This document shows, piece by piece, positions 172-46,481 of a stretch of 64,000 bases of DNA. Position 1 is the first letter of the stretch. Each line of letters starts with the position of its first letter. Source of the stretch: Cloeon dipterum (Eukaryota > Arthropoda > Insecta > Ephemeroptera > Baetidae); the NCBI RefSeq assembly GCF_949628265.1, contig NC_088789.1:2170001-2234000 (forward strand). The letters are read 5' to 3'. The position numbers and the translations under genes were made by a program. A model generated the notes under the pieces. That model had not been told where the DNA came from, ran no database searches, and saw nothing but the letters and a program-made list of their open reading frames with translations.

Positions 172-979
172 GGCAGCACCTGCAGACGAGCGCGTTGCCT
201 GCGATTACTGCCCAAAAAGCTTCTGCAGCTTGTCCACGTTGCGGCACCACCTGAAACAGTTCCACAGAAACGCTGTGGCGAACAAACTCACTTGCGGCCA
301 ATGCAATAAAGCATTCGCGGCGAAAGCCTTGCTAGACGATCACATTCGGAAGCACTCCGATTTGCGCTCTTTCGTCTGCGAGGTCTGCGGCAAGAGCTTC
401 TTCACATTTTACGACCTGAAAAAGCACCGGGTCCGTGTGCACGTAAACACGGAAAAAATTCACACGTGCCACATATGCGGGCTGGGTTTCTCGATGAAGG
501 CCACGCTGGACAACCACGTGCAGAGGCACGACCAGACGGAGCGCAGGTTTTACTGTGACCTGTGCGGCTACGGCGCGTACAAGAAAACCGACCTGGCGAT
601 GCACCTCGCGTCCACGCACCTCAAATCGAAACAGCACTCGTGTCCACACTGTGACAAGCGCTTCGGCTGGAAGTCGACCCTGCAAAAGCACATAAAAAAT
701 CTGCACAAAGAGGCGCAGCAGAGCAAGCAGTGTCCGCTGTGCAGCAAAGTGCTCAAGCACTGGTGTTTCGCCGAGCACCTCCAGTCGCACACGCAAAATT
801 TCGAGTGTGATATTTGCAAGGCTAATTTTGGCCGCAAATTGCTGCTTCGGCGGCACAAGTTGAAAGCGCACAACGTTTTGATGCACGAGTGCGAGTTTTG
901 TGAAAGACGGTTCGCTCGGAGAACGGAATTAAATGTACACCGCTACAGTGACCATAAGCTAGAGGTCTCGAATAAATGA
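172..979 (+). CDS. ZE1: C2H2 zinc-finger terminal exon, 9 fingers
   Basis: The exon opens after the acceptor CCTAATTTCAG at 161-171 and codes 268 residues to a TGA stop. Nine C2H2 fingers are visible, from CDYC to CEFC. The seventh (CPLC, then KHWCFAEHLQSH) has a compact helix. An upstream ATG at 20 is in frame, but the sequence between it and the acceptor is AT-rich and non-finger, so it is probably intronic. An AATAAA at 971-976 overlaps the last codons and stop, and an ATTAAA follows at 1015. The next acceptor lies only 156 bp past the stop. The likely role is nuclear DNA binding, inferred from the finger array; targets are unknown. Confidence 0.85.
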
Positions 980-1135
980 TTTAATGGACAATTTACACAT
1001 ATTTACATACATCAATTAAATATCAAATCCGAATAAGACTGAATGAAAATGTATTCGATTATTTTTTACAAAAACCGATTTCAATGAATCACCTGGTTGT
1101 ATATTTAACAAAGGGCTACATGATTTCACTTTCAG

Positions 1136-2381
1136 GTGGTCTGTTGTTGCTGATCGTCGCGTCTACCACTGCCAATTCTGCCAACGGGAGTATAAGTCCC
1201 ATGAGAGCAGATGTACGCACCAGAATTATTGTGAGCAAAACCCGAACCATGCTCCTCTGAAGCAAAAAACACAGGCCACTAAAAAGGTTGTCGGCAACGC
1301 CGCTGGTTGCAGCAATAATTGCAAATCCCGAGAAAAAGACTGCGAGCAAAATCCAAACCGTGCTCAGCTGTCAAACTCGGAAACACAAAGCGAGCAAAAT
1401 AATTGCGATCTCCGTCAGCTAGAATCAAATCAAAAAACACCTCTCACGGAAATGCCAATTATTAAAGCGAAACCAAAAACGCAGATCCAGCCCAAAGTGA
1501 ACGGCAAGTACGCGTGCCAGTTCTGCCCGCGGCAGTACCTATCCCGCACCAGCAGATGGGCGCACCAGAGATCCTGCTCGCTAAACCCAAACTTGGACGC
1601 GGCCACTCTCCCAAAGCCGAAGAAGCAGAAGGAAAGCAAGGTCGGCGGCTATATCTGTCAATTCTGCGAGCGCGAGTACAAGTCGCGGGTGAGCAGGTGG
1701 TGCCACCAGCGCAGGTGCCCGCTCAACCCGAATCCGGCGCCCCCGCAGCCGAAGAAACAGCCAAAACCAAAGGTCAGCGTCACGTGCGACCTGTGCGGCA
1801 AAACGCTGTGCAAGGCGTCATTGCAAGAGCATCTCAAGATCATGCACGACATCGGCACCCGGACGAGCGTGTGCCACATCTGCGGCAAAAGTTTCTCGTA
1901 CAACTCGGCCCTGCTGGTGCACCTGAGCCGGCACGACGTCGACAGTCGCAAGTGGCAGTGTGACATTTGCGGTCTGACCGCCGTCGTCAAGTCGGAACTG
2001 GAGAGGCACATCCTGGTGTCGCACCTCAAGAAAAAACAATTTGTGTGCGCGCAGTGCGGAAAGCGGTTCGGCTATTTGTCCAGCCTGAAGAAGCACTCGT
2101 CGGCCATGCACAGCGCCGTGAAGCCGACCAAGAAGTGCGACGTGTGCGGCAAGGAGGTGCTGCCCTGGCGGATGGGCGAGCACATGCAGCTGCACGGGCA
2201 GACCAAGCTGCACACGTGCAGGGTGTGCGGCCTCTCATACAAGCGGATAGGCCCGCTGGTCCAGCACCTAGATAACGCTCACGGCCAATACATTAATGCG
2301 TGCGAGCTGTGCGACATGAGTTTCAGCAAAAGGGGCGATTTAAGAGAGCACAAGTTCAACGAACATAACATAGGAAAATGA
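1136..2381 (+). CDS. ZE2: terminal exon with three C2HC and seven C2H2 fingers
   Basis: Reading from the acceptor at 1131-1135 (CTTTCAG) keeps the frame open, although the first ATG is only at 1452. The 414 residues therefore include finger-like sequence upstream of that ATG. The first three modules have the pattern CX2CX12HX3C (for example CQFCPRQYLSRTSRWAHQ, then RSC) and are repeats of one another, joined by Lys/Pro/Gln-rich linkers. Seven ordinary C2H2 fingers follow. The C2HC trio is unlike any other exon here. An AATAAA lies at 2494. DNA binding is inferred; the C2HC modules could instead serve protein or RNA contacts. Confidence 0.85.
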
Positions 2382-2975: not shown

Positions 2976-4029
2976 GCTGAGGGACCCGCTCAAACTGTAC
3001 CAATGTATATTTTGCCAGCAAATGTTTGCGACCGCTGAATCTCTTCCGATCCACATCGAGATGCAGCATCCGAAAAATATGCAGTGCGAGTTGTGTGCTA
3101 TGAGATTCCGTTCAAGTGCCACCTTGGACCTGCATATGGTTCTAACACACTCAAGTGAGCCAGCCACGACTCCGAGACCGAAAACAGCGTGCCTACCGAG
3201 TGGCTCTGGTGGCAGCAATACACCAAGTCAGAAGGCTCAAAAGCCAATTACAACTTTGGCCAAAACTAAAGATTGTGGTAGCGAGAAAAGCGGAGTCGTC
3301 GTGAAGCATGGAACCGTCACTATGAATCAAAGTGGGATGGGCAAGAATGTTGTGATTAGCTTAAACAATAGTGCTGAGAAAGATGCGAAAATTGTAAACA
3401 GTAGTGCTAAGGAAGGTGAAAATACTATACGATTTTCTGTAAACAGGGAGAAAGATAAAGTTATTACAATTCGGTTGAACAATAGCGTGGAAAACAGCAG
3501 TGCCAGCTTGAGAAGCGAGGACAAAACTGTAAAAATCTGCTTGAAAAATAAAGTTGATGATTGTCCTATCGAGGAATACGATTATACAACAGATAGTGAA
3601 ACTGATGAAACGAGTAGTGGAACGGACGAAATAAGCAGTGAAACTGAGGAAAAAAGTAGCGAAACTGAGGAAAAAAGTAGTAGTGAAACTGATGAGTCGG
3701 AGTGTCACGCAGAAGATGATGCTGCACCACGTGAACAAAATGACGGGGACGATTCATGTAGCGAGAGTAGCGAAGAAAGTGAGGAAAATGAGCCCATTGA
3801 AGGGCAAAAGGAAAACGAAAGCAAAAATGAGTTTAAATGTCAATATTGCTACAAAGTGATGCATAGCAAAGCTTCTCTTGGTCGCCATGAACGCCTGCAC
3901 AATGTAGAAAAACGTTTGATTGAGTGCCAATTGTGCGGGCAACCTTTTTTGTCTAAAAAGAGTCTTGCCAATCACCAGGTTTTCATGCATGCCTCAAAAT
4001 CGGTGATGCCAAAGCCAGGTCCTAAATGA
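2976..4029 (+). CDS. ZE3: four-finger exon split by a long acidic Ser/Glu linker
   Basis: The exon follows TTTTTTATTTCAG (ending 2975) and codes 350 residues. Two fingers (CIFC, CELC) occupy the first 50 residues. A linker of about 220 residues comes next, rich in Ser, Asn, Lys and Val and ending in a strongly acidic SSETEE-type repeat (codons near 3590-3720). Two more fingers (CQYC, CQLC) close the protein. The paired layout, with two fingers at each end, differs from the contiguous arrays around it. The acidic Ser/Glu/Thr run could be an activation or casein-kinase-type target region; that is inference from composition only. AATAAA at 4157. Confidence 0.82.
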
Positions 4030-4387
4030 AACTAGTGATTACAATTACTCGGCACAGTGTAAAATCTAACTGTAAAATAATCGTTATCACATCACAATAT
4101 GTTCAATATCGAATGTGTCAACACAAAAATTAATTCTGAAAATTATAAGTTCAACAAATAAATATCACTTTGTAAATTAAAATAAAAGTGTTTTCAACAT
4201 TGAAACCACGGAAACTGTTTATTCTAGATCAATGTTGATATAAACTTCTAAAAACGTTAAGTTGTAGAAACACCCACAGTCGCCAAAAATATGAATTGTT
4301 TCAGGCCAACTTCAAAGCGTAGATTTAAATACTTAGTAATTCGTGATAAATTTCCATATCTTTGATGGGGAAATGTTATTCTTTCAG

Positions 4388-4580
4388 AGGGGAAGTGCCA
4401 GCAGCTTCCATAAAGCAGGCTCACCAAAAAACTATCTGTTGGGAAACTTTTCGCTCTAAACTTGGTCTCACCGCTCATTTCAATGAAACAAAAGATGAAC
4501 CAACAGCTAAAAGGTTAGGGGTCACGACAAACTGTTATAAATTGCTGAAATTTAGATTCATTCTTCCAGAGATCAAGTGA
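4388..4580 (+). pseudogene. ZE4: degenerate single-finger exon, decayed twin of ZE5
   Basis: After the acceptor TTCTTTCAG (ending 4387) a 63-residue frame opens in the same phase as the other exons. It reads KQAHQKT, ICWETFRSKLGLTAHF. This aligns with the ZE5 finger KQAHENN, CHFCGENFRSKRSVTSHI, but the CX2C knuckle has become IC-W and the second His is lost. The frame runs across the ZE5 acceptor to a TGA at 4578. It looks like a tandem copy of ZE5 that can no longer bind zinc. Whether it is still spliced is unknown. Confidence 0.55.
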
Positions 4581-4765
4581 ACGACCAAGTAAAGCAGGCT
4601 CACGAAAACAACACGACTAAATGCCATTTCTGTGGCGAAAATTTTCGCTCTAAACGGAGTGTCACCTCGCATATCATCCAAACTCACACGAAAGCGGTGA
4701 ATGGATATAAAGCTCAACCTACAGTTGCAAGGTCAGGGTCTGAAATACCTGTAGTCGAATGCTAA
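4570..4765 (+). CDS. ZE5: short terminal exon with one C2H2 finger
   Basis: Acceptor CATTCTTCCAG ends at 4569. The exon codes 64 residues with a single intact finger (CHFCGENFRSKRSVTSH, then IIQTH) and a short unstructured tail ending VVEC. It is the shortest intact exon in the series, and closest to the one- or two-finger exons of known alternative-exon loci. A hAT-like MITE begins 4 bp after the stop, and its 8-bp target duplication overlaps the stop codon. The nearest AATAAA (5027) lies inside that MITE. Confidence 0.6.
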
Positions 4766-4768
4766 AAA

Positions 4769-5174: not shown

Positions 5175-6027
5175 GGCTCGACCTGATCCAGACGCGAAGC
5201 AACTAAAACCGTACCGCGCAATCCCAGCGTCTTGCGAGATTTGCAAGCAAGTCTTCCCCTCGAAAACAGGCATGCGGAAGCACATGTCGGAAAAACACAA
5301 TTTGCGCGCCGAGATCTGCAAGTGCCGGCTGTGCGACAAAAGCTACATCGGCCGTTGTGGACTGAACCACCACATGAGGACAAAACACTCGAACGAAAAG
5401 CCCTACATGTGCTCCTTCTGCGGAAAGTCGTTTCAAACTGGCAACCAATTATCGCTTCACGAGGCGAACCACGCCGAGAAAACAATCGAGTGCGACGTGT
5501 GCGACAAAAAGTTTCCCAGCAAAATGGCTCTGCGGTCTCACAAACAAAGTGTGCACGGCCCGTTTAAATACATCCAGTGCGAAATTTGCGGCAAGACTTA
5601 CAAAACGATCGACATCGCGTCGCACAAAAGAGCCGTGCACATAGACGATTCGAAAAAATACGTGCACGAGTGCGTGATTTGCGGCAAAAAATATGCGGGG
5701 GTCGGCGGTCTGAAATTCCACTTGCTCAGACACGAAAACGCGCTGAGATTCGAGTGCGATATATGCAGCAAACGCTACAATACTAAAAACTCGATCCAGT
5801 CGCACATTTTGATCCACCTGGACGACCGCAAACACAAGTGCAATCTGTGCGACAAGGCATTCGTAATGAATCACATGTTGAAATCACACATGCTCACTCA
5901 CACCCAAGAAAAAAGATTTGCTTGCGAAGTCTGCGGCCAAAGGTTCAGGTGGAAGCACGACCGAGACAAGCACCAGAACCGGAAACATTCCATTCCAATC
6001 CCTAAGTCAAATAGGCAGCTAAATTAA
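5175..6027 (+). CDS. ZE6: nine-finger terminal exon, paralogue of ZE8
   Basis: The acceptor ATTCTTTCAG ends at 5174. The 283 residues contain nine C2H2 fingers, starting CEICKQVFPSKTGMRKH and ending CEVCGQRFRWKHDRDKH. Finger-by-finger similarity to ZE8 is strong throughout, including the unusual fifth finger (GKTY/TFK, then ATEIA or TIDIA, SHKR) and the IHLDDRK linker. The two are therefore duplicates, now separated by the unrelated ZE7. No AATAAA is visible in the 71 bp before the ZE7 acceptor, so its 3' end must lie in or beyond ZE7. Confidence 0.85.
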
Positions 6028-6098: not shown

Positions 6099-7149
6099 GC
6101 TGGAACCCCCATGTAAATTGCTGCTATACCAGTGCGTGTTTTGCAATACGCTGCTCGCATCCAGCGAGCTGGTGCGGACCCACATTGAGAAGCTGCACCC
6201 TAAAACCATCAAGTGCAGTTTCTGCGATGCCAAGTTCCGCTCCGAATCTTTTCTGGCCGAGCACTTGCACGTTTGCGAAAAGAACAGGTCTGAACAGCCG
6301 CGGCCAGGCGTGCCTCTGCTCTTGATCGTCGAGCCACCCCGCGAGGAACCGCCGCCAGCCACGAAGCCAGTTATCAAATGTTCTATTGATGGGGAGGAAA
6401 TCAGCCAGTGCGAGATCTGCAATAAAGCTTTCGCTGGAAAGGACCGAATTAACAACCTCAAGGATCACATGATCAATGTACACGAATTCGATAGGCCTTT
6501 CAAGTGCTCCATTTGCGGCAAGAGCTACAGGAGCAAATACGCTCTCAAACTTCACATCGAGCTGCACCAGGAGAAGACCATTCCTTGCGACATATGTGGC
6601 AAGAAATACGTCAATGATTTGACTCTCAGGGCTCACGTCAGGCTTGTACACGGCCCCCAGAAATACGTCAACTGTAACCTTTGCGGCGAAACATTCGCCT
6701 GCAAAAATATTGCCAAACACAAAATGAAAGTTCACAAAGACCCGAAATGTATGGATTACGAATGTCCCCATTGCGCCAAGAAATACAATTGCTTTACGCA
6801 GTATAAAAACCATTTGCTTCTGCATGTGAACTTGATAACCTTTTTGTGCAACTTTTGCGGAAAGGGATTCAATTCCAAAGAATCGCTCGAGGTCCACATG
6901 ATTCCACACCTGGGGGAACAAAAATTGAAATGCAAAGTTTGCCATAAACGTTTCACTGTGAGCAGCATCTTGAAAAAACATATGCGCAATCATATTGGTT
7001 GCAATGTTTGCGACCAAAGATTCAGAAGCGATTTTGATCTTGAAGAGCACATGAAAAAGGGACACGAGCCCAAAAAACATCCTTTAGAAATTTTTGTGAC
7101 CACAGAGAAACCTGCGTGGTTCAATTACCAATGTAAAATCTTGACGTAG
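6099..7149 (+). CDS. ZE7: ten-finger terminal exon
   Basis: The acceptor GATATTTTTATTTCAG ends at 6098, only 71 bp after the ZE6 stop. The first in-frame ATG lies well inside the array, so translation must enter from an upstream exon. The 349 residues hold about ten fingers. The second is CX2C...HX3C (ending HLHVC) and is followed by a Pro/Glu-rich spacer. The third has an extra two residues before its helix (NNLKDHM). The opening residues (LEPPCKLLLYQCVFC) resemble ZE3 (LRDPLKLYQCIFC), suggesting a common origin. AATAAA at 7255. Confidence 0.85.
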
Positions 7150-8408: not shown

Positions 8409-9240
8409 AATAGCCGAAGCACCATCTAACTTAGACGGGAGACAATTGAAGCCATGCCAGCCGGTTCCATCCTCTTGCGGCATTTGCAAGCAGATATTCG
8501 CCTCGAAAACTCTCATGCGGCAGCACATGAAGTCAAAGCACAATCTGAGAGCTGAAATCTGCACTTGCCAAATCTGCGGCAAGGCGTTCATCGGCCGCAA
8601 CGGGCTCACCGCGCACACGAGGGCGAAACACAGCGACGATAAACCCTTCATGTGCTCGTTCTGCGGCAAGTCTTTCCTAACCGAACTCCAACTATCGCAG
8701 CACGAGGCCAACCACGGCGAGAAAAAGTTTAATTGCGTGTCGTGCGAACGGAGTTATGCGAGTACTCTGGCGCTTAAAAATCATACACTGAAAATTCACG
8801 GACCTTTTAAGTACGTGAAGTGCGAGATCTGCGGCAAAACGTTCAAATCGACTGAAATCGCGACGCATAAAAAGAGGGTGCACATAGACGACGCCTTAAA
8901 ATACGTTCACGAGTGTCTCATTTGCTTTAAAAAATACTCGTCGGCAGGCGTGCTGCGGAATCACATGCTCAGCCACGAAAACGCCCAGAGATTTGAATGC
9001 GACTTTTGTTCCAAGAGATTTAACACAAAAAACACTTTAAAATTCCACATGATCATTCACTTAGACGATCGCAAGTTCAAGTGCGAGCTCTGCGATAAGA
9101 GCTTTGTATTTCGCTCATCTTTGGCCCAGCACATGCTCACTCACACCAAGGAAAAGCGGTTTGCGTGCGAGGTGTGCGGTCAGAGATACAGACAAAAGTT
9201 TGATAGGAACGAACATCAAAGAAGAAAGCATAGATTATGA
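8409..9240 (+). CDS. ZE8: nine-finger terminal exon, paralogue of ZE6
   Basis: Acceptor TAATTCTTTCAG ends at 8408. It codes 276 residues with nine fingers (CGIC, CQIC, CSFC, CVSC, CEIC, CLIC, CDFC, CELC, CEVC) in the same order and spacing as ZE6. Linkers such as IHGPFKYVKCEIC and SHENAQRFECD are shared. The pre-finger segment also matches ZE6 loosely (…DPDAKQLKPYRAIPASC versus …NLDGRQLKPCQPVPSSC). The AATAAA at 9329-9334 directly abuts a MITE. Its role as a sequence-specific DNA-binding end is inferred. Confidence 0.86.
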
Positions 9241-10057: not shown

Positions 10058-11066
10058 GAGGAAACGGGGCCGGCCGCGCGGAGCTCGGAGCGCTCTGCGC
10101 GAGCGCTGCGACATCTGCGGCACGCGGTGCGCGTGCCAGGCGCGGCACGTGCGTTCGGCCCACCCTGACGCGCGGTACTTGGAGTGCGAGGCGTGCGGCG
10201 AGCGGCGCTGGTCGAGGACCGGCATGCGGCGCCACTGGCTGTCGCAGCACGGCGGCCGCGACGTCGACGGCGCCGGCGGCCACGAGTGCAGCGTGTGCGG
10301 CCAGCAGTTCGCCACCTACAGCAGCCGGCGCTGGCACCAGATCGTGGCGCACGAGCCGGAACGCTTCCGCTGCAACTTCTGCTCGCAGACGTTCAAGCGC
10401 GCCGAGACGCTGCGCGTGCACGAGCGGCGCCACACGGGCGAGCGGCCGTTCGTGTGCGCCCAGTGCGGCGGCCAGTTCATCTCGAGCGCCACGCTGCGCT
10501 ACCACCTCAAGACGCACGAGCCGCAGGCCGAGAGCTTCACGTGCGAGGTGTGCGGCAAGAGCTTCGCGTTCGGCCACTACCTGGCGCAGCACCGCAAGAC
10601 GCACTTCGCCGAGGCGCGCAAGGTGCGCTGCGGCGTCTGCGGCTGGGTCACCTACAGCCGCTCGCACCTCAAGAACCACATGGTGACGCACACGGGCGAG
10701 CGGCCGCTCACGTGCGAGCTGTGCGGCAAGACGTTCGCGCACGGCTCCGGCCTGCGCAGCCACCGCGTCAAGCACAGCGCCGACAAGCGGCCGCACAAGT
10801 GCAACTACTGCGGCAAGGCCTACACGTCCGGCTTCATCCTGCGCAGGCACATCAAGCTGCACCAGGGCCTGCGCCCCTTCGAGTGCCACGTGTGCAACGC
10901 GGCCTTCACGCAGCGCGAGTGCCTCCGCAAGCACCAGTGGGTCAAGCACAAACTGATGCCGTACAAGTGCGACGAGTGCGACGCTACTTTTATGCTTATG
11001 AACGAGCTCAAAAAGCACAGGGTCGAGGTGCACTTCCGTCTTTCCCAGGACGGGCTCTCTGACTGA
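10058..11066 (+). CDS. ZE9: GC-rich eleven-finger terminal exon
   Basis: The acceptor CCTTATTTCAG ends at 10057. A basic start (RKRGRPRGARS, AT-hook-like GRPRG) precedes eleven fingers over 335 residues. The first is divergent (CDICGTRCACQARHVRSAH). Canonical HTGERPF linkers occur between several fingers. Third codon positions are almost all G or C, in sharp contrast to ZE8 and ZE10. Finger seven (CGVCGWVTYSRSHLKNHM) is the GWxTYxxxxLKxHM type shared with ZE16, ZE17, ZE23 and ZE24, placing it in that subfamily. AATAAA at 11156. A long open frame on the opposite strand is a GC shadow. Confidence 0.87.
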
Positions 11067-11618: not shown

Positions 11619-12534
11619 GCAAGGCCAGAAAGGCGACATTCAGGGGCCATGGCGGCAGGTGCTCCCAAGAAAACAACACCCACCTGCCAAATGCGGAATT
11701 TGTCAAACGACATTTGATGAGCTGAACGTCCTGTCTGCGCACGTCAAATTGCACGGGAGAAAGAAGGGAGAAATCTCGCTTGACTTTATTTGCGACATGG
11801 CCAAATGCACTGCCAGCTTTTACCACTATGGCGACCTGATGAAGCACATGCGAATGTACCACGACTTCAGCTTGGATGTCGATAAACTCAAGTGCGTGTT
11901 TTGCGAAAAGAAATACATGTCCAAAGATAATTTGCGCATGCACTTGGAGAAGCACCTGAAACGATTCGATTGTATAAGATGCGGAGTTACCTTGCACTCA
12001 GAGGACAAGCTGATCGCGCATCTCGCGAGCCACTACAACAAGTGCGACATATGCGATAAAGATTTCGACTCCAAAGCGGAGCTGCTGCAGCACGATGCGA
12101 CCGAGCACGAACTGACTGAAGTCGTCACGAAAGAAAGTCGGGTTGACCCAAAGGATGCATGCAAAATTCACACATGTAGCAGGTGTGATGCGATTTTTGT
12201 GAACAAATTCTACTTGGACGAACACATCAAGTCGCAACACGCAATTTCACTCATTTTAACCAATCAATGCGATGTGTGCTCGAAACAAGTGCACGTGAGA
12301 TTCATGTGGAGCCACCAAATGTCCCACACTAAGAAAGCAAGCGAGCACCAATGCTGCTGGTGCCCCTGTAAATACACAGACCTGGACGAGCTGAGCAAAC
12401 ACTTGTCTCAAATGCATAATGCCATTCCTTTCGCTTGTACAAAGTGCAGTGCGACTTTTTTGACAGCACTGAAATTGCGCCAGCATACTATCAAGGAGCA
12501 CGGACAGCCTGCTCAATTTGTGCTGACAGAATAA
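11619..12534 (+). CDS. ZE10: nine-finger terminal exon with variant fingers
   Basis: The acceptor ATATTTTTTCAG ends at 11618. The 304 residues include about nine fingers, several non-standard. One has a CX4C knuckle (CDMAKC). One has a compact helix (CDVCSKQVHVRFMWSHQMSH). One begins CCWCPC. A spacer near codons 185-200 (ELTEVVTKESRVDPKDACKI) separates the halves. AATAAA at 12630. No close paralogue is evident in the window, so this looks like an older member. Confidence 0.83.
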
Positions 12535-12937: not shown

Positions 12938-14315
12938 GCGGCCGGCTAAAACACTGTCCTGGTGCCAGATGTGCAGCAAATTCATTTCGAGCTTGTCCGA
13001 GCACATGAAAACAGTCCACCCCAGCGTGGGAGTGAAATGCGGCGTGTGTAAGAAACTTTTCGCAAACCTGGAAACATTCCAGCTGCACATGCCCGAGCAC
13101 GAGGCGGGTCCTTCCTCGGCCGACGCCGACGGTGCCTTCGTCCAGGAGGAGTACCCTTGCGACAGGTGGGTGTGTGACAAGATCTGCGCCACCGAGGCCG
13201 AACGCACCACCCACCTCGTGCGGCAGCACGTGTGCGACCTGCACAAGCCCGTGATGAAGTGCAACGCGTGCAGCGAGATTTTCCTGCTCAAGTACTCTCG
13301 CGAGCTGCACTTTCAGGAGTACCCTGACCACTTTATCGACGAGCAGGGCAACACGCTGCCGCGGCCGCAGTCGCTGCTGCAGTGCCAGCTGTGTCTGGAG
13401 AGCTACCGGCATGAGAGCTGCCTGCAGGAGCACCTCTCGTGGCACGCCGACGAACGCGGCCTGCTGTGCGAACTTTGCGGCTACGCGCTGGGCTCGCTCG
13501 AGCTGCTGCAGCAGCACCTGCAGTCGGCGCACAAGTTCAAGAAGGAGACGCAGAAGCCGACCTGCGAAGAGTGCAGTTCGGGCCAGTGCGTGCACACCGT
13601 CGCCACCGCCACCGGACTCGTGTGCGACTTCTGCGGCGAGGTCTTCTCCTCGAAGCAGTTCATGGATTTCCACATTCGCTGGCACTTCGGCCTGCCCAAC
13701 GACTCGAGGCACTACGAGTGCGACATTTGCGACCAGGTGCTCGTCTCGGCCGCCAACCTGGCCAGCCACCGCGAGTTGCACTTCCGCGACAAGCGCATCT
13801 CGTGCAACGTGTGCGGCTACGTTACCAACAACGTCATCTACGCTAAAAAACACAAGGCGCTGCACAAGGGCGACAAGGACACGGTGCACTGGTGCAAGGC
13901 GTGCAACCGCAGTTACGGCAGCGAGACCAGTTTGAAAATGCACATCCGCACGGCGCACACACACCGGGGGCGGCGCGTGGCCAAGCAGTACGAGTGCTCG
14001 GTGTGCCAGCGCAAAATGCCGAGCCGCTCCGCGCTGAGAATCCACATGTGCTCGCACACGGGCAAGTACCCGCACCGCTGCAAGGTGTGCCGCGGCGGAT
14101 TCGCCATCAAGGTGCAGCTGCGCAACCACCTGTGGAAGGAGCACCACATCGGCTCCTTCCAGTGCACCATGTGCAACGAGTCTTTTGGACACATAAAAAC
14201 CAGGACGGAGCACTACAAAATAGCTCACCGCGGATTTAAGACCCCCGAGGAAGAGGCTGAACATTTGTTGAAACTAAGAGTGGGCCGCAAATATACCAAA
14301 GCTAAGAAGGAATGA
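12938..14315 (+). CDS. ZE11: about thirteen-finger terminal exon
   Basis: Acceptor GATATTTTTTTGCAG ends at 12937. An ATG at 12810 is in frame, but it lies in AT-rich sequence before the acceptor and is not a likely start. The 458 residues begin with a compact finger (CQMCSKFISSLSEHMKTVH), then CGVC...HMPEH and a knuckle of CX4C type (CDRWVC). This is the same opening order as ZE12, ZE13 and ZE15, so it is a divergent member of that group. A spacer with extra cysteines (CEECSSGQC) sits mid-array. The central part is GC-rich. AATAAA at 14404. Confidence 0.86.
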
Positions 14316-14542: not shown

Positions 14543-15821
14543 ATCGGTGGTTTGCCGCATTTGCTCCGAAAGAATGACTAACTTTCAAGCCCACATGATT
14601 GAGCGACACGCAGAGACAATGAAGTACAAGTGTGGCTTGTGCAACGACCTGTTTTTCGGCATGTCCTCCTTCCAAGCTCATATGCCGATACACGAAAATA
14701 GGGTGAAGCAGAGTGCCAAGTACCAATGCGACTTCAAAGAGGGCTGCATGCGATTCTTCGAAAGACGGCATTTGCTGATGCACTTGGCTAACGATCACTC
14801 GATCAAAAACAAAACTCAGTACAATCAGTGCACGCTGTGCGATCTAGTTTTTGCGTGGAAGCACAATTTAGAAAAGCACTTGGATAAAATTCACAATGTC
14901 GTCATATGGCATAAAAAACCAGCGAAATTGGAAATAACGTGCACCGTTGATGGCACCTTGAGGTGCAACTTTTGCCCTGAAAAATTCTCCAGCAAAGAAA
15001 TTATCGAGAAGCACATTGAGGTGCATTTGCGAGCTCTCGAATGTTCCGGTGTGCCATTCGGTTGCAGCGCTTGCAACTTCTTCAGCAGAGCTTACGGTAG
15101 GCTCACTATCCACTATGCACAGGTCCACGACACTGCTTGGCCCAGGTTTCCTTACGAGTGCGATTTGTGCTCCAGAAAGTTCAACATCAGCACCTATTAC
15201 AAATATCACATGCAACGTCACAGTGGTGTGTTTCAAAAGTGCAATATCTGCGGCAAACAATGTCCATCAACATTAGCACTTAAAAGACATCATGAGTTCT
15301 GTCATAGTCAGAAAAAACATGTCTGCGAGGTTTGCGGGGCCGCTTTCAGGCGTTCGATAGAATTTAAAATGCATAAACACTTTCACAATGAGCAACTTTT
15401 GAAGTGTCTGCTCTGCGACTACACCACATACAATCTGATTCATCTCAGGGGTCACATGGAAACTCATTTCAAACAGAAAAAGAAGTGCAACATCTGCACA
15501 AGGACCGTCTACAATATGAGGAGCCACATGAAATGGAAACACAGCAGCGAGAAGCGGGAACACCCGTGTAAAATTTGCGGCAAGAAATATTCCACTTCGA
15601 CTTCGTACAAATATCACATGGAATCGGTACACCTTGATAGGAAGGCCTTTCAGTGTGATGTTTGCGCTGAATTCTTTCACAGCGTGGCCAAAATGAGAAC
15701 CCACAGGCGGAAAGAGCATGGTATCATGCCGCATGAGTGCACCATTTGCCAAGAAGGCTTCATGACTCCGACGCAGCTGAAATCGCACAGAGCCAAAACA
15801 CACCGCAACAAAAGCGATTAG
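14543..15821 (+). CDS. ZE12: fourteen-finger terminal exon
   Basis: Acceptor TGCTGTTCTTTCAG ends at 14542. The protein segment starts SVVCRICSERMTNFQAHM at once after the splice, with a compact first finger, then CGLC...HMPIH and a CX5C finger (CDFKEGC). In total there are about 14 fingers in 425 residues. Finger ten reads CLLCDYTTYNLIHLRGHM, and finger eleven is compact (CNICTRTVYNMRSHM). The same order recurs in ZE13 and ZE15. AATAAA at 15885. Confidence 0.88.
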
Positions 15822-21067: not shown

Positions 21068-21180
21068 CTGTGCGATTTTGAGTCTTGCACCAAGCGCTTT
21101 TTAAGGATAGGGCTATTGATTCAGCACATTCAGAACGATCACAAAATCAAACCGATGTACGAATGCTCTTTCTGTGACTT
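19634..21180 (+). repeat. 384-bp tandem repeat within ZE14, four copies plus a partial
   Basis: Successive copies of the GAATGC/GAGTGC knuckle codons lie exactly 384 bp apart (19634, 20018, 20402, 20786), then 375 bp to 21161. Copies are nearly identical over most of their length, including the spacer codons, so the expansion or its homogenisation by gene conversion is recent. The unit preserves frame (128 codons). Confidence 0.88.
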
Positions 21181-21307
21181 TGTCTTCACTCAGAAGGCGA
21201 ATTTTCAAAGACACCTGAAGGATGCACACAACGCTGACCCACATGCTACGAATAAACTGGAGGTTATGTGCAGCCTCGACGGACACTTGAGGTGCTCACG
21301 GTGGTAA
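21068..21307 (+). pseudogene. Stranded 3' end of ZE14 after the nonsense codon
   Basis: Directly after the TAA the same frame continues LCDFESCTKRFLRIGLLIQH and then a CSFC finger and LEVMCSLDGHLRC, closing at TAA 21305-21307. The sister exons ZE12, ZE13 and ZE15 continue from this point with nine or ten more fingers, so ZE14 also lacks the distal half of the ancestral array. AATAAA at 21450. Confidence 0.7.
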
Positions 21308-29475: not shown

Positions 29476-29478
29476 CAT

Positions 29479-31356: not shown

Positions 31357-32503
31357 ATGCAACGAACAGGGCGGCGGAAAAGACTTGGACAAGGAGCGCC
31401 TCCGCTCCAACTTGAGGACCGTCCTGCTAACGGACGAGAAAAAACGATTGAAAGTTTTCTACGAGTGCGCGCATTGCCTGTTTCGCCTCCCATCTTTCGC
31501 CTCGGTCTGCACCCACATGCTTGAGGAGCACAATGAAAGACCATTCAACCTTAAGGAAGACAAACAGGAGCATCCATGCACCGTTTGCGGGCGCAAATTT
31601 AGCTCCGAGACAAAACTGGAGGAACACATGCGCGACCACACTGGTGTGAGACCCTTCCTCTGCCCCACCTGCGGCAAATCTTTCAAAACAAAAGACATAC
31701 TGAAATGCCACATGAAGACGCACGAGGAGCGCGTCAATGCGTTCACGTGCGAGGTGTGCGGCAAGCTTTTTCCCATGATAAGTCGCCTGAAGGCTCACAG
31801 GAACATCCACTTTCCTGAGTCACGCACGAAGAAGTGTGATATCTGCGGCTTTAGTACCTACTGCAAATCGAAACTGAAAAATCACATGCGAACGCACACC
31901 AGGGAGAAGACGTTTAGCTGCGACGAATGCGGAAAAAGCTTTCTCCACAATTCCGGTCTCTTTAATCACAAGCAGAAACACAAACGCTTTTCACACAAGT
32001 GCTTCATTTGCGGAAGGGCTTTCAGCATTGCGTTTAACCTGCGGAGGCACATGGCAACCCACACAGGCAAGAAGGATTTCGAATGTGACATTTGCCACAA
32101 TTTTTTCGCGCAGAAAAGCACCCTGATCCAACACCAGTGGCTGAAGCACAATAATCTGCCGTACAAGTGTGGCAAGTGCGACGAGCAGTTTCAGCTGAAT
32201 CTCGAGCTCAAGCAGCACAGGATTACCGTGCATCTTAAGAAACAGGTCGACGATATCCCTGACAAGGAACCTGTCCCCTGCCAGGAATGCAACAGGAGTT
32301 TATTCCACGAGAGGAGCCTCAAGTTTCACATGCTCAAGGCGCACAACAAGGAGGTCAAAGGAGTTCGAAAAACTCAGAAGAAGTCTCAGAAGCTCATTTG
32401 TGACTTCTGCAACAAAGTCTATGCGGTTCCCTATCACCTGAGGAAGCACATCGAAAAGCACCTGCAAGTGGAGGTGGAGAAAAAGAATTTGACTAAACCA
32501 TAA
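31357..32503 (+). CDS. ZE20: eleven-finger exon of the tandem block
   Basis: Leader CNEQGGGKDLDKERLRSNLR, then eleven fingers in 381 residues (CAHC, CTVC, CPTC, CEVC, CDIC, CDEC, CFIC, CDIC, CGKC, CQEC, CDFC). This is the fullest version of the block's array and a good reference for the losses in ZE18. The last linker carries a Lys/Gln stretch (KTQKKSQK). AATAAA at 32531, preceded by the shared 3' flank TTGTGCATTCTGCCATAACA. Confidence 0.9.
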
Positions 32504-33601: not shown

Positions 33602-34736
33602 GTGCAAGGAACAGGGCGTCCGAAATTACTTGGAAAAGAAATTTATCAGGATCTTCGATTTTAGGAGTGAACTGAACACGGACGAGAAAAAACCATCGAA
33701 GGTCATCTACCAGTGCTCGCATTGCCAGTTTCGCGATCCATCTTTCGACTTAGTGCGCGCCCACATGCTCAAGGAGCACGATGAAAGACCATTAAACAAA
33801 GACAAACAGGAGCATCCATGCACCGTTTGCGAGCGCAAATTTAGCTCTAAGACAAAGCTGGAGGAACACATGCGCGACCACACTGGTGTGAGACCCTTCC
33901 TCTGCCCCACCTGTGGCAAATCTTTCAAAACCAAAGAATTGCTGAAAAACCACATGAAGACGCACGAGGAGCGCGTCAATTCGTTCACGTGCGAGGTGTG
34001 CGGGAAGCTTTTTCCCATGATTAGTCGCCTGAAGGCTCACAGGAACATCCACTTTCCTGAGTCCCGCACGGAGAAGTGCGATATCTGTGACTTCAGTACC
34101 TACTGCAAATCGAAACTGAAAAATCACATGCGGACGCACACCAGGGAGAAGACGGTGACCTGCCACGAGTGCGGAAAAAGTTTCGTCCATGCTTCCGGTC
34201 TGCACGCTCACAAGCAGAAACACACACCCTTTTCATACAAGTGCAACATTTGCGGTAAGGCTTTCGGTCAAGCCTTCAACCTGCGGATACACATGGCAAT
34301 CCACACAGGCAAGAAGGAATACGAATGTGACATTTGCCACAATTTGTTCGCGCAGAAAAGCACCTTGAGTGAACACCAGTGGAAAAAGCACAACAATCTG
34401 CCAAACAGATGTGGCGAGTGCAATGAGCAGTTTCATCTGAATCTCGAGCTGAAGCAGCACAGGATCACCGTACATCTTAAGAGACAGATCAATGCAATCC
34501 CTGACAGGGTGCCTGTCCACTGCGAAGAATGCGACAGGAGTTTCCTCCACGAGAGGAGCCTCAAGTTTCACATGCTCAAGGCGCACAACAAGGTCAAAGG
34601 CGGTCGAAAAACTCAGAAGTCTCGCAAGCTCATTTGTGACTTCTGCAACAAAGTCTATTCGGCTCCCTATCACCTGAGGAATCACATTAAAAAGCACCTG
34701 CAAGTGGAGAGGAAGAAGAATTTGATCAAATTTTAA
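33602..34736 (+). CDS. ZE21: eleven-finger exon of the tandem block
   Basis: Leader CKEQGVRNYLEKKFIRIFDF then TDEKKPSK, followed by eleven fingers in 377 residues. Fingers two to six are almost identical to ZE20 (CTVCxRKFSSKTKLEEH, CPTCGKSFKTKELLKNH), while fingers seven and eight are closer to ZE18 (CNICGKAFGQAFNLRIH). That mosaic suggests gene conversion or unequal exchange within the block. AATAAA at 34761. Confidence 0.9.
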
Positions 34737-35327: not shown

Positions 35328-36450
35328 GTGCGAGGAACAGGGCGCCCGAAATGACTTGGACATGCAACGTATCAGCACCAATAATAATGTGAGGACCGTC
35401 CTGCAAACGGACGCGAAAAAACGATTGAAAGTCTTCTACCAATGCGCGCATTGCCTGTTCCGCCTTCCATCTTTCTCCTTGGTGCGCGCCCACATGGTCA
35501 AGGAGCACAAAGAAAGGCCATTCAACAACGTGGAACAGGAGCATCCATGCACCGATTGCGATCGCAAGTTCAGCACCAAGACAAAGCTGGAGGTCCACAT
35601 GCGCGACCACACCGGTGATAAACCCTTTCTCTGCACCACCTGCGCCAAATCTTTCAAAACAAAAAAGCTGCTGACAAGTCACATGAAGACGCATGAGGAG
35701 CGCGTCAAGTCGTTTACGTGCGAAGTGTGCGGGAAGCTTTTTCACCAATATCATAACCTGATGAATCACAGGGACATCCACTTTCCGGAGTCTCGCACGG
35801 AGAAGTGCGAAGTCTGCGACTTCAGTACCTACAGCAAAACCGGACTGAAAAATCACATGCTGACGCACACCAGGGAGAAGACGGTGAGCTGCAAAGAATG
35901 CGGACAAAGCTTCGTTCGTACTTCTTCTCTTTATATGCACATTAAACAGAAACACCTACCCCCGTCAAGCCAGTGCACCGTCTGTGGAAAGACCTTCGGG
36001 CAAGCCTTCAACCTGCGGAGGCACATGGCGACCCACACAGGCTTTAGGGAATATGAATGTGACATTTGCCACAAATTAAGCACGCAAAAATCCGAACTGA
36101 TCGGACACCAGTGGGGTAAGCACAAGGTTCTGCCGTACAAATGTGGCGAGTGCGACGAGCAGTTTCATCTGAATGTCGAGCTGAAGCAGCACAAGATCAC
36201 CGTGCATCTCAAGAGACAGGTCAATGCAATCCCTGACAGGGTACCTGTCCCCTGCCAGGAATGTGACAGGAGTTTCCTCCACGAAAGGAGCCTCAAGTTT
36301 CACATGCTCAAGGCGCACAACATGGGGGCCAAGGTTAATCGCACCCGAGATAAGCAGTACATTTGCGACATGTGCAATCAGAGCTGCATGTCCAAATTCC
36401 ACTTGATGAAGCACATTGACAAGCACCTGCGCATGCAGGCAAAATGTTGA
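35328..36450 (+). CDS. ZE22: eleven-finger exon of the tandem block, most diverged
   Basis: Leader CEEQGARNDLDMQRISTNNN, then eleven fingers in 373 residues. Finger three is CTTCAKSFKTKKLLTSH. The final finger CDMCNQSCMSKFHLMKH differs from the CDFCNKxYxxPxHLRKH end of its neighbours. The protein ends DKHLRMQAKC. AATAAA at 36506. Confidence 0.88.
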
Positions 36451-37405: not shown

Positions 37406-38549
37406 GTGGAAGTATCTTGCCTGTGACACGCAGCTGGAAGTGCCAACCTTCCAGTGCCACTTTTGCTGCGAATGGTTCAAACGGAAGAACACCTTTGAAA
37501 AGCACATGCAGGATCACCTGAAGGTTCTCTTTAAGTGCCACATTTGCCATGCTGGATTTTCCTTTCGCGGCTACCTGCACGGCCACCTGCGCAGGGAGCA
37601 CCAGCTGCTCAACCAGATACCGTGCACTATGTGCAGCCGCAAATTCCAAAGCAAAGCCGCGCTGGAAATCCACCTGCGCAGCCACACCGGCGAGAGACCT
37701 TTTATCTGTCCCACCTGCGGAAAAGGGTACATCTCCTTTTACACGCTGAAGGAGCACCAGGTGATCCACAGGGAACGCGTCAATTCGTTCATCTGTGAGG
37801 TGTGCGGCAAGGGATTTGCCAAGAACTCGCAACTGCTGCGTCACAGAAAAATTCACTTCAAGGAGGCCCGCACGGAAAATTGCGAGATCTGCGGCTGGAA
37901 AACCTACTGCAAAACTCTGCTGAAAAGGCACATTGCCACGCACACGGGGGAGAAGACGAAGACTTGCGACGAGTGCGGAAAAAGTTTCGGTCAACAAACC
38001 AGTCTCACTTTGCACAAGATGCACAAACACAATCCACCGTCGAGCAAATGCAACATCTGCGGAAAGGCCTTTGCCCATGCGTTCAACCTACAGCGACACA
38101 TGGCGACCCACACGGGCGCCAGGGACTTCGCTTGCGATATTTGTGGAGATAAATTCTCGCAGAAATCCACCCTGATCCAACACCAGTGGCTGAAGCACAA
38201 TAATCTGCCGTACAAGTGTTGCGAGTGCGACGAGCAGTTCCAGCTGAATTTCGAGCTGAAACATCACACGATCACAGTTCATCGCAACAAACAAATCGCC
38301 TTCCCTGACAAAAAACCCATCCCCTGCAAAGACTGCGACAGGAGTTTCCTCCACGAGATAAGCCTGAAGTATCACAGGGTTAAAACGCATAATGAGATTT
38401 TAAAACGGAAACGTAGAGTAATTCGCAATAAGACGTACATCTGCGACTTTTGCAACAAGAGCTACGTTTCCTCCTTCCACATGAGGAATCACATTGAAAA
38501 GCACCTACGTGAAGGAGTCAAGCGGAAGAGGAAATTTAAAAAATCTTAG
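37406..38549 (+). CDS. ZE23: twelve-finger terminal exon, paralogue of ZE17
   Basis: The segment begins WKYLACDTQLEVPTFQ after the splice (compare WRKS in ZE17), with twelve fingers in 380 residues in the same order as ZE17. Finger six is CEICGWKTYCKTLLKRH. Fingers nine to eleven (CDIC, CCEC, CKDC) instead resemble the tandem block (HQWLKHNNLPYKC). The exon is thus intermediate between ZE17 and ZE18-ZE22 and may reflect the ancestral form. A basic tail (KRKRKFKKS) ends the protein. AATAAA at 38590. Confidence 0.89.
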
Positions 38550-39861: not shown

Positions 39862-40876
39862 GGAGAAACGGAAGCGCGACGAGAAGGCGGTGCGGTGCGA
39901 CGTCTGCCGAGCGAAGCACGCCAACGCGGGCTGTTTGGCGCGGCACATGCTGTGCGAGCACCGCGAGTTCAGCAAGCTCAAGTGCGAGCAGTGCGGCAAG
40001 CGGCTGTGGTGCAGGGGCCACATGCGGCGCCACTGGCGGGCGCACCTGCAGGTGCTCGTGTACAGCCACCCGTGCAGCGAGTGTCCGAAGGCGTTCAAGC
40101 GGCTGCGCAGCCTGCGGCAGCACATCAAGGTGTCGCACCCGGACAAGGCGGAGCCGCGCCGCTGCCGCTTCTGCCTGCTGGCGTTCAGCAGCACCGACAA
40201 GCTCGAGTACCACGAGCGCAAGCACACCGGCGAGCGGCCGTTCGTGTGCGCCACCTGCGGCAACGCCTACATCTCGGACTACGCGCTCAAGCAGCACGAG
40301 CGGCTGCACGACCCTCCCGAGGACGCGTTCACCTGCGAGATCTGCGGCAAGTGCTTCGCCTTCCGCAACTACCTCACGCAGCACCGCAAGATCCACTTCG
40401 CGGAGGCGCGCACCGAGAAGTGCCACCTGTGCGGCTGGAGCACCTACAGCCGCGCCGTGCTCAAGAACCACCTGCTGACGCACTCGGGCGAGAAGAACGT
40501 GACCTGCGAGCAGTGCGGCCGGTCGTTCGCGCACAAGGCGCTGCTGCACGACCACCGGCTGCGCATGCACAGCGACACCAAGCCCAGCCACCTGTGCACC
40601 TACTGCGGCAAGACGTTCGCCACCGGCACCAGCCTGCGCAGGCACATCGCCCTCCACCAGGGGCTGCGCCCGCACGAGTGCACCCTCTGCGGCACCACCT
40701 TCGCGCAGCGCTACACCCTCAGGACGCACCAGTGGCTCGTGCACAAGGTGCTGCCCTACAAGTGTGACAAGTGCGACCAGTCGTTCAAGCTCAAAAACGA
40801 GATGCAGCGGCACAGGGTGCACGCGCACCTCACCGCCGCCGACAAGGGCGACGACACAGACTCGCAGCCAAACTGA
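39862..40876 (+). CDS. ZE24: GC-rich eleven-finger terminal exon
   Basis: Begins EKRKRDEKAVRCDVCRAKHA and carries eleven fingers in 337 residues. Its layout matches ZE9 almost finger for finger (compare ZE9 CEVCGKSFAFGHYLAQHRKTHFAEAR with CEICGKCFAFRNYLTQHRKIHFAEAR, each quoted here only to show the shared run). GC-rich third positions are also shared. ZE9 and ZE24 are thus paralogues 29 kb apart with matching composition. AATAAA at 41155. Confidence 0.88.
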
Positions 40877-42133: not shown

Positions 42134-43025
42134 ATGGGAGGAGCCTGACTGGGACGCGGACGCCGACGACTCGAAAGACGCCGACTACGAGCCCCCGAAG
42201 CTGAAGATGCGTCTGCGGCTGTCCGATATCGGGCCGGGACGCCGTCGGCGCGGCCGCCCACGCATCGCGGAGGTCATCGAGAGCCTCCGGGTGCGGAAGG
42301 TGAGGGCGGAGGACGAGGAGGTGGCGGCGGCGGCGGTGCCGCGGAGGCGCGGCCGCAAGCACTTTTCGCCGCCCGACTGCGTTCTGCAGGCCGAAGCGGA
42401 GGCGGAAGCGGAAGCGGAGGCGGAGGCCGAGCAGCTGCTGCTGGAGCCGAAGCGGCGGCCGGGGCGGCGCTCCAAGCTGGAACTGGCGCGCGACGGGTGG
42501 CACGAGCGGACCTACATGTGCGAGCTGTGCGGCAAGCACCTCAAGAGCAGCAAGTCGCTGGCCAGCCACCGCGAGATCCACTTCGCGCGCCGCTACAACT
42601 GCGAGCTGTGCAAGCGCGCCTTCCACTTCAAGGACACGCTGCGCAAGCACATGAACTCGCACCTCGGGCTGCGCGACTACCAGTGCGAGTACTGCGCCAA
42701 GGCGTTCAAGCTGCACTCGACGCTGCAGGCGCACATCAACGTCGTGCACCTCGGCTCGGTCAAGACGGCCTTCGAGTGCATCGTGTGCAAGAAGAGCTTC
42801 CACAAAAAGGACCATTACGACCGGCACACGCGCACCCACACGGGCGAGCGCCCGTACGCGTGCGAGCTGTGCGAGTGGAAGTTCGCCAACGTGTTCAACC
42901 TGCGCCAGCACAAGATCAGCATCCACAAAGTGATGCCCTTCCCCTGCCAGCACTGTGCCGAGGGCTTCAAGGCAAAAAAACTGCTCGCCGAGCACTGCGT
43001 CGTGGCCCATGCCATCTACATATGA
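42134..43025 (+). CDS. ZE25: six-finger exon with acidic leader and Glu-Ala repeat
   Basis: After the splice the segment reads WEEPDWDADADDSKDADYEP, strongly acidic, then a basic stretch with GRRRRGRPR (AT-hook-like), a second basic run RRRGRKHFSPP, and an (AE)n repeat near codons 85-95. Six fingers occupy the C-terminal 175 residues, with CELCEWKFANVFNLRQHKIS resembling ZE27. The 296-residue segment is GC-rich. The AT-hook-like motifs could add minor-groove contacts; inferred. AATAAA at 43201. Confidence 0.86.
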
Positions 43026-43048
43026 TTCCTGATTGTTACTATATGGAC

Positions 43049-44352: not shown

Positions 44353-44935
44353 CAGCAAGAAGGAGCGTCCGAAGCGCGACCCGCGGCGCCTGTGCTGCGA
44401 GATGTGCGGCAAGGTGTGCCGCGACACGTACAAACTGCGTTCGCACTGGGTGCGCCACTTCCCGGAGCTGTGCAGCTTCTCGTGCGACATCTGCGGCTCG
44501 CGCTTCTTCGAGAAGCAGAACCTGCGCGAACACATGATCCGTCGGCACCACTTCGGCCTGGCGCCGCTCTACTGCCAGCACTGCGCCCGCCAGTTCTTCT
44601 GCCCGCGCCTGCTCGACCGGCACGTCAACCGAATCCACTTGGGCATGGCGGCGCCGGCGCCGCACTTGTGCGCCGTCTGCGGGCGCCGCTTCCAGCACCG
44701 CTTCCACCGCGACCGCCACATGCACACGCACACCGGTGAGAAGCCGTTCAAGTGCGACCTGTGCGACGTGCGCTTCGCCGACCCGTCCACCGTGCGCAGG
44801 CACAAGATGGGCGTGCACAAGTGGCTGCCCCACCGCTGCGACGTCTGCGACGTCGGCTTCTCGAACAAGAACGGCCTCAGCACGCACAAGCTCAGCGTCC
44901 ACATCACCAAGAGCAGCGACCCGGATGTCTGTTAA
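44353..44935 (+). CDS. ZE26: GC-rich six-finger terminal exon
   Basis: Begins SKKERPKRDPRRLCCEMCGK after the splice and codes 193 residues with six fingers (CEMC, CDIC, CQHC, CAVC, CDLC, CDVC). It is the only exon whose first base is C rather than G or A, so the junction codon would be AGC if the donor exon ends in AG. An alternative CAG three bases on would keep the frame. Third codon positions are strongly GC. AATAAA at 45272. Confidence 0.85.
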
Positions 44936-45338
44936 TTCCGTCTCACTTCGAGAATTATGCCAAAGTCTGACTTAAACAATTCCGAGGAGATAACAAAATT
45001 AATTTTATTAGATAGGCAGCAATAATATATATATTCCTAATTCAGTTTTATACGTTCAAATGAATGCATTTCTATTTTTCTGAATAATCCACAATGAGAA
45101 CAGAAGTTCCTTCAGAGACATTCTCAAGCCATTAATGTTGAATCAAGAGAATTTTGACTGAGTGTAAAGTAACGCACACAATTAAAGCCGGGCATCTTCC
45201 TACATTAGGATAAACCTGATTTTTCATACACAACCCATATTAAAAGTCAGATTATTTTATGCCACCTTAAAATAAAATAAGGTAAAGTCAATCAAAACGC
45301 ATTTCATCAGACTGATTGGAATGTGGTGTGCATTCCAG

Positions 45339-46481
45339 GTCGAGAAAGTGGCGCCGAGGGCAACCGCCGTACATGTGCCACGAGTGCGGCCGGACGTACA
45401 TGCAGGTTAGATCTTTCACCGACCACCTCCAGAGGCACAGACCACCGCAATTCCAGTGTGATTTTTGCGGCAGGAAATTTTGTCTCAAGGTAACAAGTAA
45501 TTTCAAATCCAGTCAAAATTAATCAAATGAGTTGGGGACATCAATGACTGCAATTTGTGAAGAATGTTGTTTTAAGGCTCTTCGACCTGATGAGAAATAA
45601 TTGTGACTTAGTTCTTTGGGTCAATAATTTTAAAAGGCTAAAACGTAGGGTTGTGAAATTTTTACGATCGACTATTTTTCTGAGCTTAAAATCATTGTGA
45701 GACCATCCAATGAGCGAGAAGTGCGTATGCGTGAGAGCTGGTTTGAGCCCTTGCAGAGAGATCACCCGTACGAATGACTTCTTTGTCAGATCCAGCCACC
45801 TCTGACGCATGCGCACTTCTCGCATTTATATTGATTTGGCGGGAAAAAAGTTCGCAAGTCGTGCTGGACTTTTTGATCGGAAAAATACCCTTTTTACCTA
45901 ATTCGACCCTCATGAAGAATCGATTGGTGTGCTCAGAAACTTTGTCAAAGACACATTTTACGTCAGTCTGATGACAAATAACAACTCAGATGTGAACTTC
46001 TCCGCTTGATTATAAAAATATCCCTTAGTCTAAATTTTGAATTTCCTAATTTCAGAGTTTCCTGACGAGTCATATCAAGCACTCGCACCTAGAAATCCGT
46101 TTCCAGTGCCACTTGTGTGGAAAGCAGCTGAGCACGCACGGCAACCTGTCGCGGCACCGTTCGCAGGTGCACCAGGCTCACGAGCGGCCCTACCCTTGTG
46201 TCATGTGCAATAAACGCTTTGACACGCCCGACTGCCTGGCGCGGCACACGCGCACCCACACCGGTGAGAAACCATACGCGTGTGACCTGTGCGACTGGAA
46301 GTTTGTGCAGGCAAGCCAACTAAGGACTCACAGGATCGGCAAGCACGGCATCCTGCCCTACCAGTGCAACTTCTGCAGCGCAGACTTCAGGACAAAACGA
46401 AACCTCAAACAACACTGTATTGATAAACACGGCACGCACCCACCATACGTGGAGGGCGCCGAGCCTGCTGTGAAAGTTTAA
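45339..46481 (+). CDS. ZE27: six-finger terminal unit made of two exons
   Basis: Exon one (45339-45489) follows GTGCATTCCAG, codes RKWRRGQPPYMCHECGRTYM and the knuckle of finger two (CDFCGRKFCLK), and ends AAG|GTAACA. Exon two (46056-46481) follows TTCCTAATTTCAG and continues SFLTSHIKHSH, completing finger two. Total 191 residues and six fingers. The intron is phase 0 and splits a finger, unique in this window, and it contains MITE fragments (45646-45955). CDLCDWKFVQASQLRTHRIG resembles ZE25. AATAAA at 46698. Confidence 0.82.
45646..45708 (-). repeat. Partial inverted copy of the TAGGGYTGTGAAA element
   Basis: Starts TAGGGTTGTGAAATTTTTAC and matches, in reverse complement, the ends at 46680 and 58380 (CACAGCCCTA, with TTTTTCTGAGCTT against AAGCTCAGGGAAAAAA). 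Only about 60 bp is preserved before another MITE begins. Confidence 0.55.
45715..45955. mobile_element. Palindromic MITE, copy 2 (left arm missing)
   Basis: Shares GAGAAGTGCG, CGCATGCGCACTTCTCGCAT, TTTGGCGGGAAAAAA and the outer arm CTCAGAAACTTTGTCAAAGA with the copy at 38665, but lacks that copy's outer left arm. Its central segment is in reverse orientation relative to the outer arm. It lies within the intron of ZE27. Confidence 0.75.

Follow-up and report, generated by a model that had tools for sequence, protein, structure and literature searches.

A ZAD zinc-finger locus with about 40 candidate alternative endings in the mayfly Cloeon dipterum

Layout of the locus and its shared start

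The stretch of DNA analysed here (the window) comprises 64,000 nucleotides of Cloeon dipterum contig C4 (NC_088789.1), at C4:2170001-2234000 of a 190-Mb assembly of 10 contigs; negative positions denote bases to the left of it. It holds 240 matches to the C2H2 zinc-finger pattern, grouped into 28 clusters between positions 200 and 46430, and all 28 lie on the plus strand, which bears out the co-orientation of finger exons claimed in the original prediction, made from the letters of the window alone. The clusters very probably belong to one transcription unit of approximately 72 kb (C4:2144524-2216481), of which the window covers the 3' two thirds, and in which the splicing machinery would join three 5' exons encoding a ZAD to one of about 40 co-oriented finger endings. 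This reading is built on the geometry of the array, the shared start, the matching phases and the exact junctions in 12 NCBI models, all seen directly. The window holds 26 finger endings, and a further 14 finger open reading frames (ORFs) lie between the shared start and the window, so that 40 acceptors were taken as endings overall, each of them a one-base acceptor, i.e., an AG that leaves one base for completion of the codon (phase-2 entry). The shared start lies 23.8 kb to the left of the window, approximately 69 kb separate the ZAD donor from the farthest acceptor, and no finger ORF was found in the 37 kb to the right of position 46481.

Exon 18985 is contained in the C. dipterum NCBI protein P0001 with 100% identity and coverage, and P0001 (isoform X2) and P0003 (isoform X6) have their N-terminal residues in common, followed by exons 18985 and 21728, respectively. 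The start consists of three exons, C4:2144524-2144664, 2145692-2145829 and 2145888-2146207 (window -25476 to -23793), which code for 199 codons plus GG and end in the phase-2 donor GG/GTGAGT (the stroke marks the junction). The shared constant exon with a phase-2 donor, which had been placed to the left of the window without being seen, is thereby located, with 12 NCBI isoforms joined to it. A "BTB or ZAD" domain had been anticipated for it, and of the two it is the ZAD that is present: Pfam scans of P0003, P0034 and P0038 gave a ZAD (PF07776) at 40.8 to 41.6 bits, against a cut-off of 28, and no BTB in any of the three, and none of the BTB matches listed lies in C4:2.01-2.25 Mb. The start exons also encode an acidic, lysine-rich linker beside the ZAD. 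Both features tested for membership of the ZAD zinc-finger (ZAD-ZNF) family, an N-terminal ZAD and C-terminal C2H2 fingers, were found. A search of solved structures with the ZAD returned weak matches to CG2712 (E 0.11) and LD15650p (E 0.64); matches to designed repeat proteins (E 4.5e-9, 1.8e-8 and 1.4e-4) included no stretch that passed alone and were judged spurious.

A search with the start only, which covered proteins between approximately 346 and 1100 residues long, recovered 12 C. dipterum isoforms (X2, X3, X4, X6, X7, X12, X13, X14, X18, X19, X20 and X25), together with a paralogue from the same species (49% identity) and one protein of the mayfly Neocloeon triangulifer (75%). The 12 isoforms do not differ at any of their first 200 residues, and from residue 201 onward each maps exactly to a one-base acceptor, nine times in the window and three times upstream. 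The acceptor at the junction is the top-scoring AG in 11 of the 12 and the second-best in X4. As NCBI gene models, all 12 shared-start isoforms thus conform to a layout of one constant part with many alternative 3' exons, and the models together use 9/26 of the window acceptors and 5/14 of those upstream. Isoform X3 (P0038) is made of three finger exons chained together, -8554, -7094 and -6393, whose joining in silico reproduces P0038 letter for letter; its first donor, AA/GTAA, overlaps the stop codon of the exon, which can therefore be spliced onward or stop. Six of 39 endings of the main locus (-7322 and five others) have a last codon ending in G and a stop that overlaps a possible GT donor.

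Within the locus the shared start occurs only once. With a ZAD model built from seven true ZAD proteins, the 244 kb of C4:2010001-2254000 gave only the halves of both known ZADs and two weak matches with E of at least 0.018. These two, a plus-strand ORF at 23637 (E 0.31 in full, 0.018 for the first half), read in a different frame from exon 23740, and an ORF at 49091 on the minus strand (E 0.69 for the first half), were judged to be chance. The lack of a convincing third ZAD in this region, the 12 models with an identical start and exact junctions, the small gaps between endings and the repetition of layout and donor phase in a second locus (see below) all speak against a simple row of independent ZNF genes, each equipped with its own first exon and all alike in phase through duplication, that NCBI fused wrongly to the nearest ZAD. 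We regard such a cluster as very unlikely, although P0041 and P0002 are single-ending models without a ZAD and although, according to the available part of PMC7655104, 37 of 91 ZAD-ZNF genes of D. melanogaster lie in 13 clusters, many with an intron structure like that of their neighbours.

Entry phase and content of the endings

Acceptors were ranked by a generic pyrimidine-tract score that ignores phase. Of 28 plus-strand finger ORFs in the window, one (21068-21307) lacks a candidate AG and continues exon 18985 beyond its stop; among the remaining 27, the highest-scoring AG ahead of the first finger leaves one base in 25 (binomial P against 1/3 = 1.9e-10). For comparison, the best AG is of this kind in 65/184 non-finger ORFs of the window (best AG within the first 150 nucleotides) and in 2/10 finger ORFs with at least two fingers from eight other regions of the genome, a single cluster supplying four of these ORFs. 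The two exceptions are ORF 29417, in which the one-base acceptor 29515 is second-best by 0.2, and ORF 46050, which is entered in phase 0. Two choices in the window were made by hand, 29515 being preferred to 29481, and 172 to 58, although the one-base AG at 58 outscores it in the first window ORF. In the upstream part a one-base AG is present in 14/14 finger ORFs and is the best in 10; a lower-scoring one was chosen for the other four (2151911, 2157371, 2162906 and 2166230), and 2162906 and 2166230 are both used in NCBI models. The original prediction had counted 27 exons, all entered in phase 2, and this stands for 26 of them; the last one (46056-46481) is entered in phase 0 and is the latter of two exons that make up a single ending, which leaves 26 endings. 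Its rule of taking the nearest upstream pyrimidine-AG recovers the named acceptor in only 5/26 cases, and a pyrimidine tract is needed as well. Its argument that independent genes would not share one phase is a weak one, given that tandem copies inherit the phase of a single gene; because tandem duplicates retain phase, we set the agreement aside as proof and keep it as support only. The decisive evidence is the shared start, rather than the phase.

All window endings lie on the plus strand, and nine of them have exact junctions in NCBI isoforms: 2976-4029 (X18, P0034), 6099-7149 (X19, P0033), 14543-15821 (X7, P0036), 18985-21067 (X2, P0001), 21728-23018 (X6, P0003), 23740-24658 (X25, P0029), 25209-26385 (X12, P0031), 31357-32503 (X14, P0030) and 39862-40876 (X20, P0035). 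Exon 18985 carries 16 fingers, the maximum that had been claimed for the variable ends; read through to 21307, it contains tandem repeats of finger units, with an in-frame stop at 21067 and two more fingers behind. NCBI isoform numbers decrease with length order in 12/12, and the predicted lengths of the other endings fill the slots left free in X1 to X25 exactly if -8554 is placed in X3 and if 29515, 33602 and one 519-residue ending (27137 or -22865) are left out. The omission of 29515 and of the 519-residue ending was post hoc, while 33602 is independently modelled apart (P0041). Four further endings with one-base acceptors suit particular slots by their predicted length: 12938-14315 (X5), 16682-17957 (X8), 37406-38549 (X15) and 35328-36450 (X16), the last of which is a young tandem copy. 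Two other young tandem copies, 27137-28097 and 29515-30676, are likewise entered by one-base acceptors; the latter has no length slot, and the former shares its length with -22865, one of the two being without a slot.

The remaining endings also have one-base acceptors. These are 1136-2381, 8409-9240, 10058-11066 (10 fingers), 11619-12534, 42134-43025, 5175-6027, the one-finger ending 4570-4765, and 172-979 with eight fingers, for which the acceptor at 172 was confirmed as leaving one base, with its higher-scoring rival at 58 of the same kind. At 44356-44935 the AG at 44353 is an equally good one-base acceptor, and 33602-34736 is entered at the same acceptor in a separate NCBI gene. The array ends with a two-exon ending, 45339-45489, which has a one-base acceptor and the donor AAG/GTAACA, and 46056-46481, whose joining in phase 0 restores a C2H2 finger split between them. 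To the right of the array, the two genes recognised by Pfam are both on the opposite strand: fragments of a UDP-glycosyltransferase gene (51862-53325, minus strand) and an ORF for a MYND-finger protein (55199-56485, minus strand).

The 40 endings carry 356 fingers, from 1 (4570 and -6393) to 19 (-21391), each exon of the X3 chain being entered separately in the count. Contact positions were assigned from the canonical C2H2 finger; the four residues that contact DNA occur in 338 different combinations, the order of which differs in 40/40 endings. A poly(A) signal AATAAA follows the stop within 150 nucleotides in 22/40 endings, against 5/40 in a reverse-complement control, within 500 nucleotides in 35/40 against 17/40, and anywhere ahead of the next acceptor in 37/40 against 24/40. 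The gaps from stop to next acceptor measure 71 to 1417 nucleotides.

These gaps bear on trans splicing, by which the same ZAD start would receive some or all of its endings from promoters of their own in the gaps, and which overlaps with our reading in everything except splicing in cis. It has precedents in lola and mod(mdg4), as described in the available parts of PMC1947980 and PMC11426971, and the distance of approximately 69 kb from the donor to the farthest acceptor and the local start in the NCBI model of 33602 would suit it. A 3' untranslated region, a promoter and a branch point would, however, all have to fit into each of the gaps. Upstream of the 40 acceptors we found neither a common regulatory motif (the top 7-mer occurs in 18/40 regions, against up to 22 in shuffles) nor an element pairing with the donor (the pairing score is the same as in shuffles), and no observation requires trans splicing, so that we consider it quite unlikely.

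Growth of the array and related loci

Of the 40 endings, 35 are matched best by another ending of the same locus and 5 by one of the second locus. In 14 of the 35 the best match is the adjoining ending (shuffle mean 1.7, maximum 10 in 2000), and because best matches so often adjoin, the array appears to have grown as finger exons were duplicated in tandem. The frames of seven related endings have stayed open, their pairwise ratios of nonsynonymous (dN) to synonymous (dS) divergence range from 0.28 to 1.02, and dN at the contact positions exceeds that of the other finger positions in all 21 pairs. Positive selection at the contact positions was considered and set aside: contact dN exceeds whole-exon dS in 6/10 pairs drawn from endings 27137, 29515, 31357, 33602 and 35328, with one tie, and the pairs are not independent, which makes the result only suggestive.

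It might be that the start is shared and only a minority of endings are in use, the others being decaying copies. The one-finger endings 4570 and -6393, the copies that have no place among the numbered NCBI isoforms (29515, and 27137 or -22865) and the in-frame stop of exon 18985 with two fingers behind it are consistent with such decay. Against it stand the open frames of the seven related endings, whose dN/dS is below 0.7 in 19/21 pairs, and the AATAAA within 500 nucleotides of the stop in 35/40 endings versus 17 in the control, and on balance we think it unlikely.

A second, paralogous locus, 118 kb upstream (C4:2026415-2049847; window -143585 to -120153), repeats the layout, with its own three-exon ZAD start and a donor, GG/GTGAGT, in the same phase as that of the main locus. 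It has 15 finger ORFs, the best AG being a one-base acceptor in 11, and about 12 co-oriented endings; 12 were used here, with 2028407, 2028577 and 2049428 left out and a lower-scoring one-base AG taken for 2035046, 2037455 and 2047951. Its ZAD is joined to its first finger exon in P0040, a protein from another contig set. Two pairs of endings are reciprocal best matches across the loci, 2027657 with 45339 and 2033163 with 42134, which suggests from sequence comparison that several endings predate the split of the two loci or were exchanged later. Farther along the contig, C4:28352408-28359750 contains a third related ZAD start and eight finger ORFs, with a one-base best acceptor in six, and is possibly a third locus of the kind in which one ZAD serves many arrays. 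A co-oriented finger cluster at C5:29259501-29300238 probably has a different architecture: the four arrays read there have a common leader, which ends in GQRLFG or GQIVFR, and the best acceptor phase is 0 or 2 in 4/4.

In N. triangulifer, the finger part of the protein with the shared start had no match above 34% identity to the endings in 78 alignments, and no Neocloeon protein is named among the best 120 of 406 matches of another protein search, in which general finger proteins and P0041 came up.

Proposed mechanism and comparison with known systems

We propose that a single pre-mRNA is made, that its ZAD donor would be joined to one acceptor only, and that the transcript would then be cleaved past that ending, each mRNA thus carrying the common ZAD and a different array of 1 to 19 fingers. 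The array would be read in cis from one promoter through competing splicing and polyadenylation, each ending may be expressed, each protein may have its own DNA site, and the isoforms could pair through their common ZAD. Finger exons might also be chained, as three of them are in the X3 model.

Several observations weigh against this reading. The main one, as regards a single locus for all endings, is P0041, in which 33602 is annotated as a separate gene, with the same acceptor and a five-residue local start at 33519. Another annotation gives P0002, a relative of exon 18985 on another contig (81% identity), as a stand-alone protein without a ZAD. No retrieved model matches 25 of the 40 acceptors, and 17 of the 26 in the window lie outside the retrieved ZAD-bearing models, 33602 among them; 29515, and 27137 or -22865, fall outside the NCBI isoform slots, and the NCBI models themselves may in part be computed. 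A poly(A) signal ahead of the next acceptor is missing from endings 5175 and -16830, neither AATAAA nor ATTAAA occurring in the 71 nucleotides that follow the former. A genome-wide Pfam search for ZADs missed the locus's own split ZAD, so that a diverged split ZAD among the endings is conceivable. Finally, the N. triangulifer protein with this start is the only one found and has no isoform number, and the layout is seen in C. dipterum alone.

A BTB start characterises both lola and mod(mdg4), the two loci of this type that are best known. In the available parts of PMC1947980 and PMC11426971, Drosophila lola is described as joining a constant N-terminal protein-interaction domain to alternative C-terminal exons, with 20 isoforms, 17 of which have C2H2 fingers, and mod(mdg4) as a single locus with at least 30 isoforms that differ at their ends (PMC11426971). 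The mayfly locus resembles lola in having, according to the NCBI models, one constant part and alternative ends, and differs from it in its ZAD in place of a BTB and in its approximately 40 endings of up to 19 fingers each; the ends of lola carry one or two fingers according to the original prediction, as opposed to whole arrays here. It is also unlike mod(mdg4), with its BTB start and mostly FLYWCH ends. The locus works like lola and mod(mdg4) and yet is outside that BTB group, being by its domains a ZAD-ZNF gene. The insect ZAD-ZNF family, as far as PMC7655104 and PMC5509000 are available, is characterised by an N-terminal ZAD and a C-terminal C2H2 array, clusters grown by duplication and rapid turnover. 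Its members are described there as separate clustered genes, while in the mayfly locus a single ZAD seems to be shared by an entire cluster of arrays. The C2H2 gene cucoid of culicine mosquitoes, related to ZAD-ZNF genes according to the title of PMC9810180, has three transcripts that differ at the 3' end (PMC6783274, available part), as compared with the dozens of separate finger arrays in the mayfly locus. Among the titles and abstract beginnings listed from open PMC, subscription journals and preprints lying outside this search, we found no published description of a ZAD gene with many alternative finger-array ends.

We tentatively suggest, as a possibility that we hold well short of even, a mayfly family of at least two loci in which one ZAD serves many finger arrays, a conserved homodimerising start being paired in combination with a fast-turning, chainable library of about 40 and 12 arrays. 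ZAD homodimers are described for Grau (by crystal structure), Pita, ZIPIC and Zw5, and the joining of distant sites is attributed to dimerisation of the ZAD (PMC5509000, available part); a ZAD shared among unlike arrays would extend this to them. If this is true, any two isoforms could pair through the ZAD, so that k endings would give up to k(k+1)/2 dimers bridging unlike DNA sites, and combinatorial specificity of DNA binding or of chromatin contacts would be generated from one promoter. The diversification of ZAD-ZNF repertoires could also be tested on this locus: its start is 75% identical in Neocloeon, the sole Neocloeon ending found is at most 34% identical to those of C. dipterum, and in related copies the contact positions change faster than the other finger positions. 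If the arrangement is confirmed, one promoter would control dozens of specificities, and new ones would arise whenever a single exon is duplicated, with no need for a further promoter or dimerisation domain.

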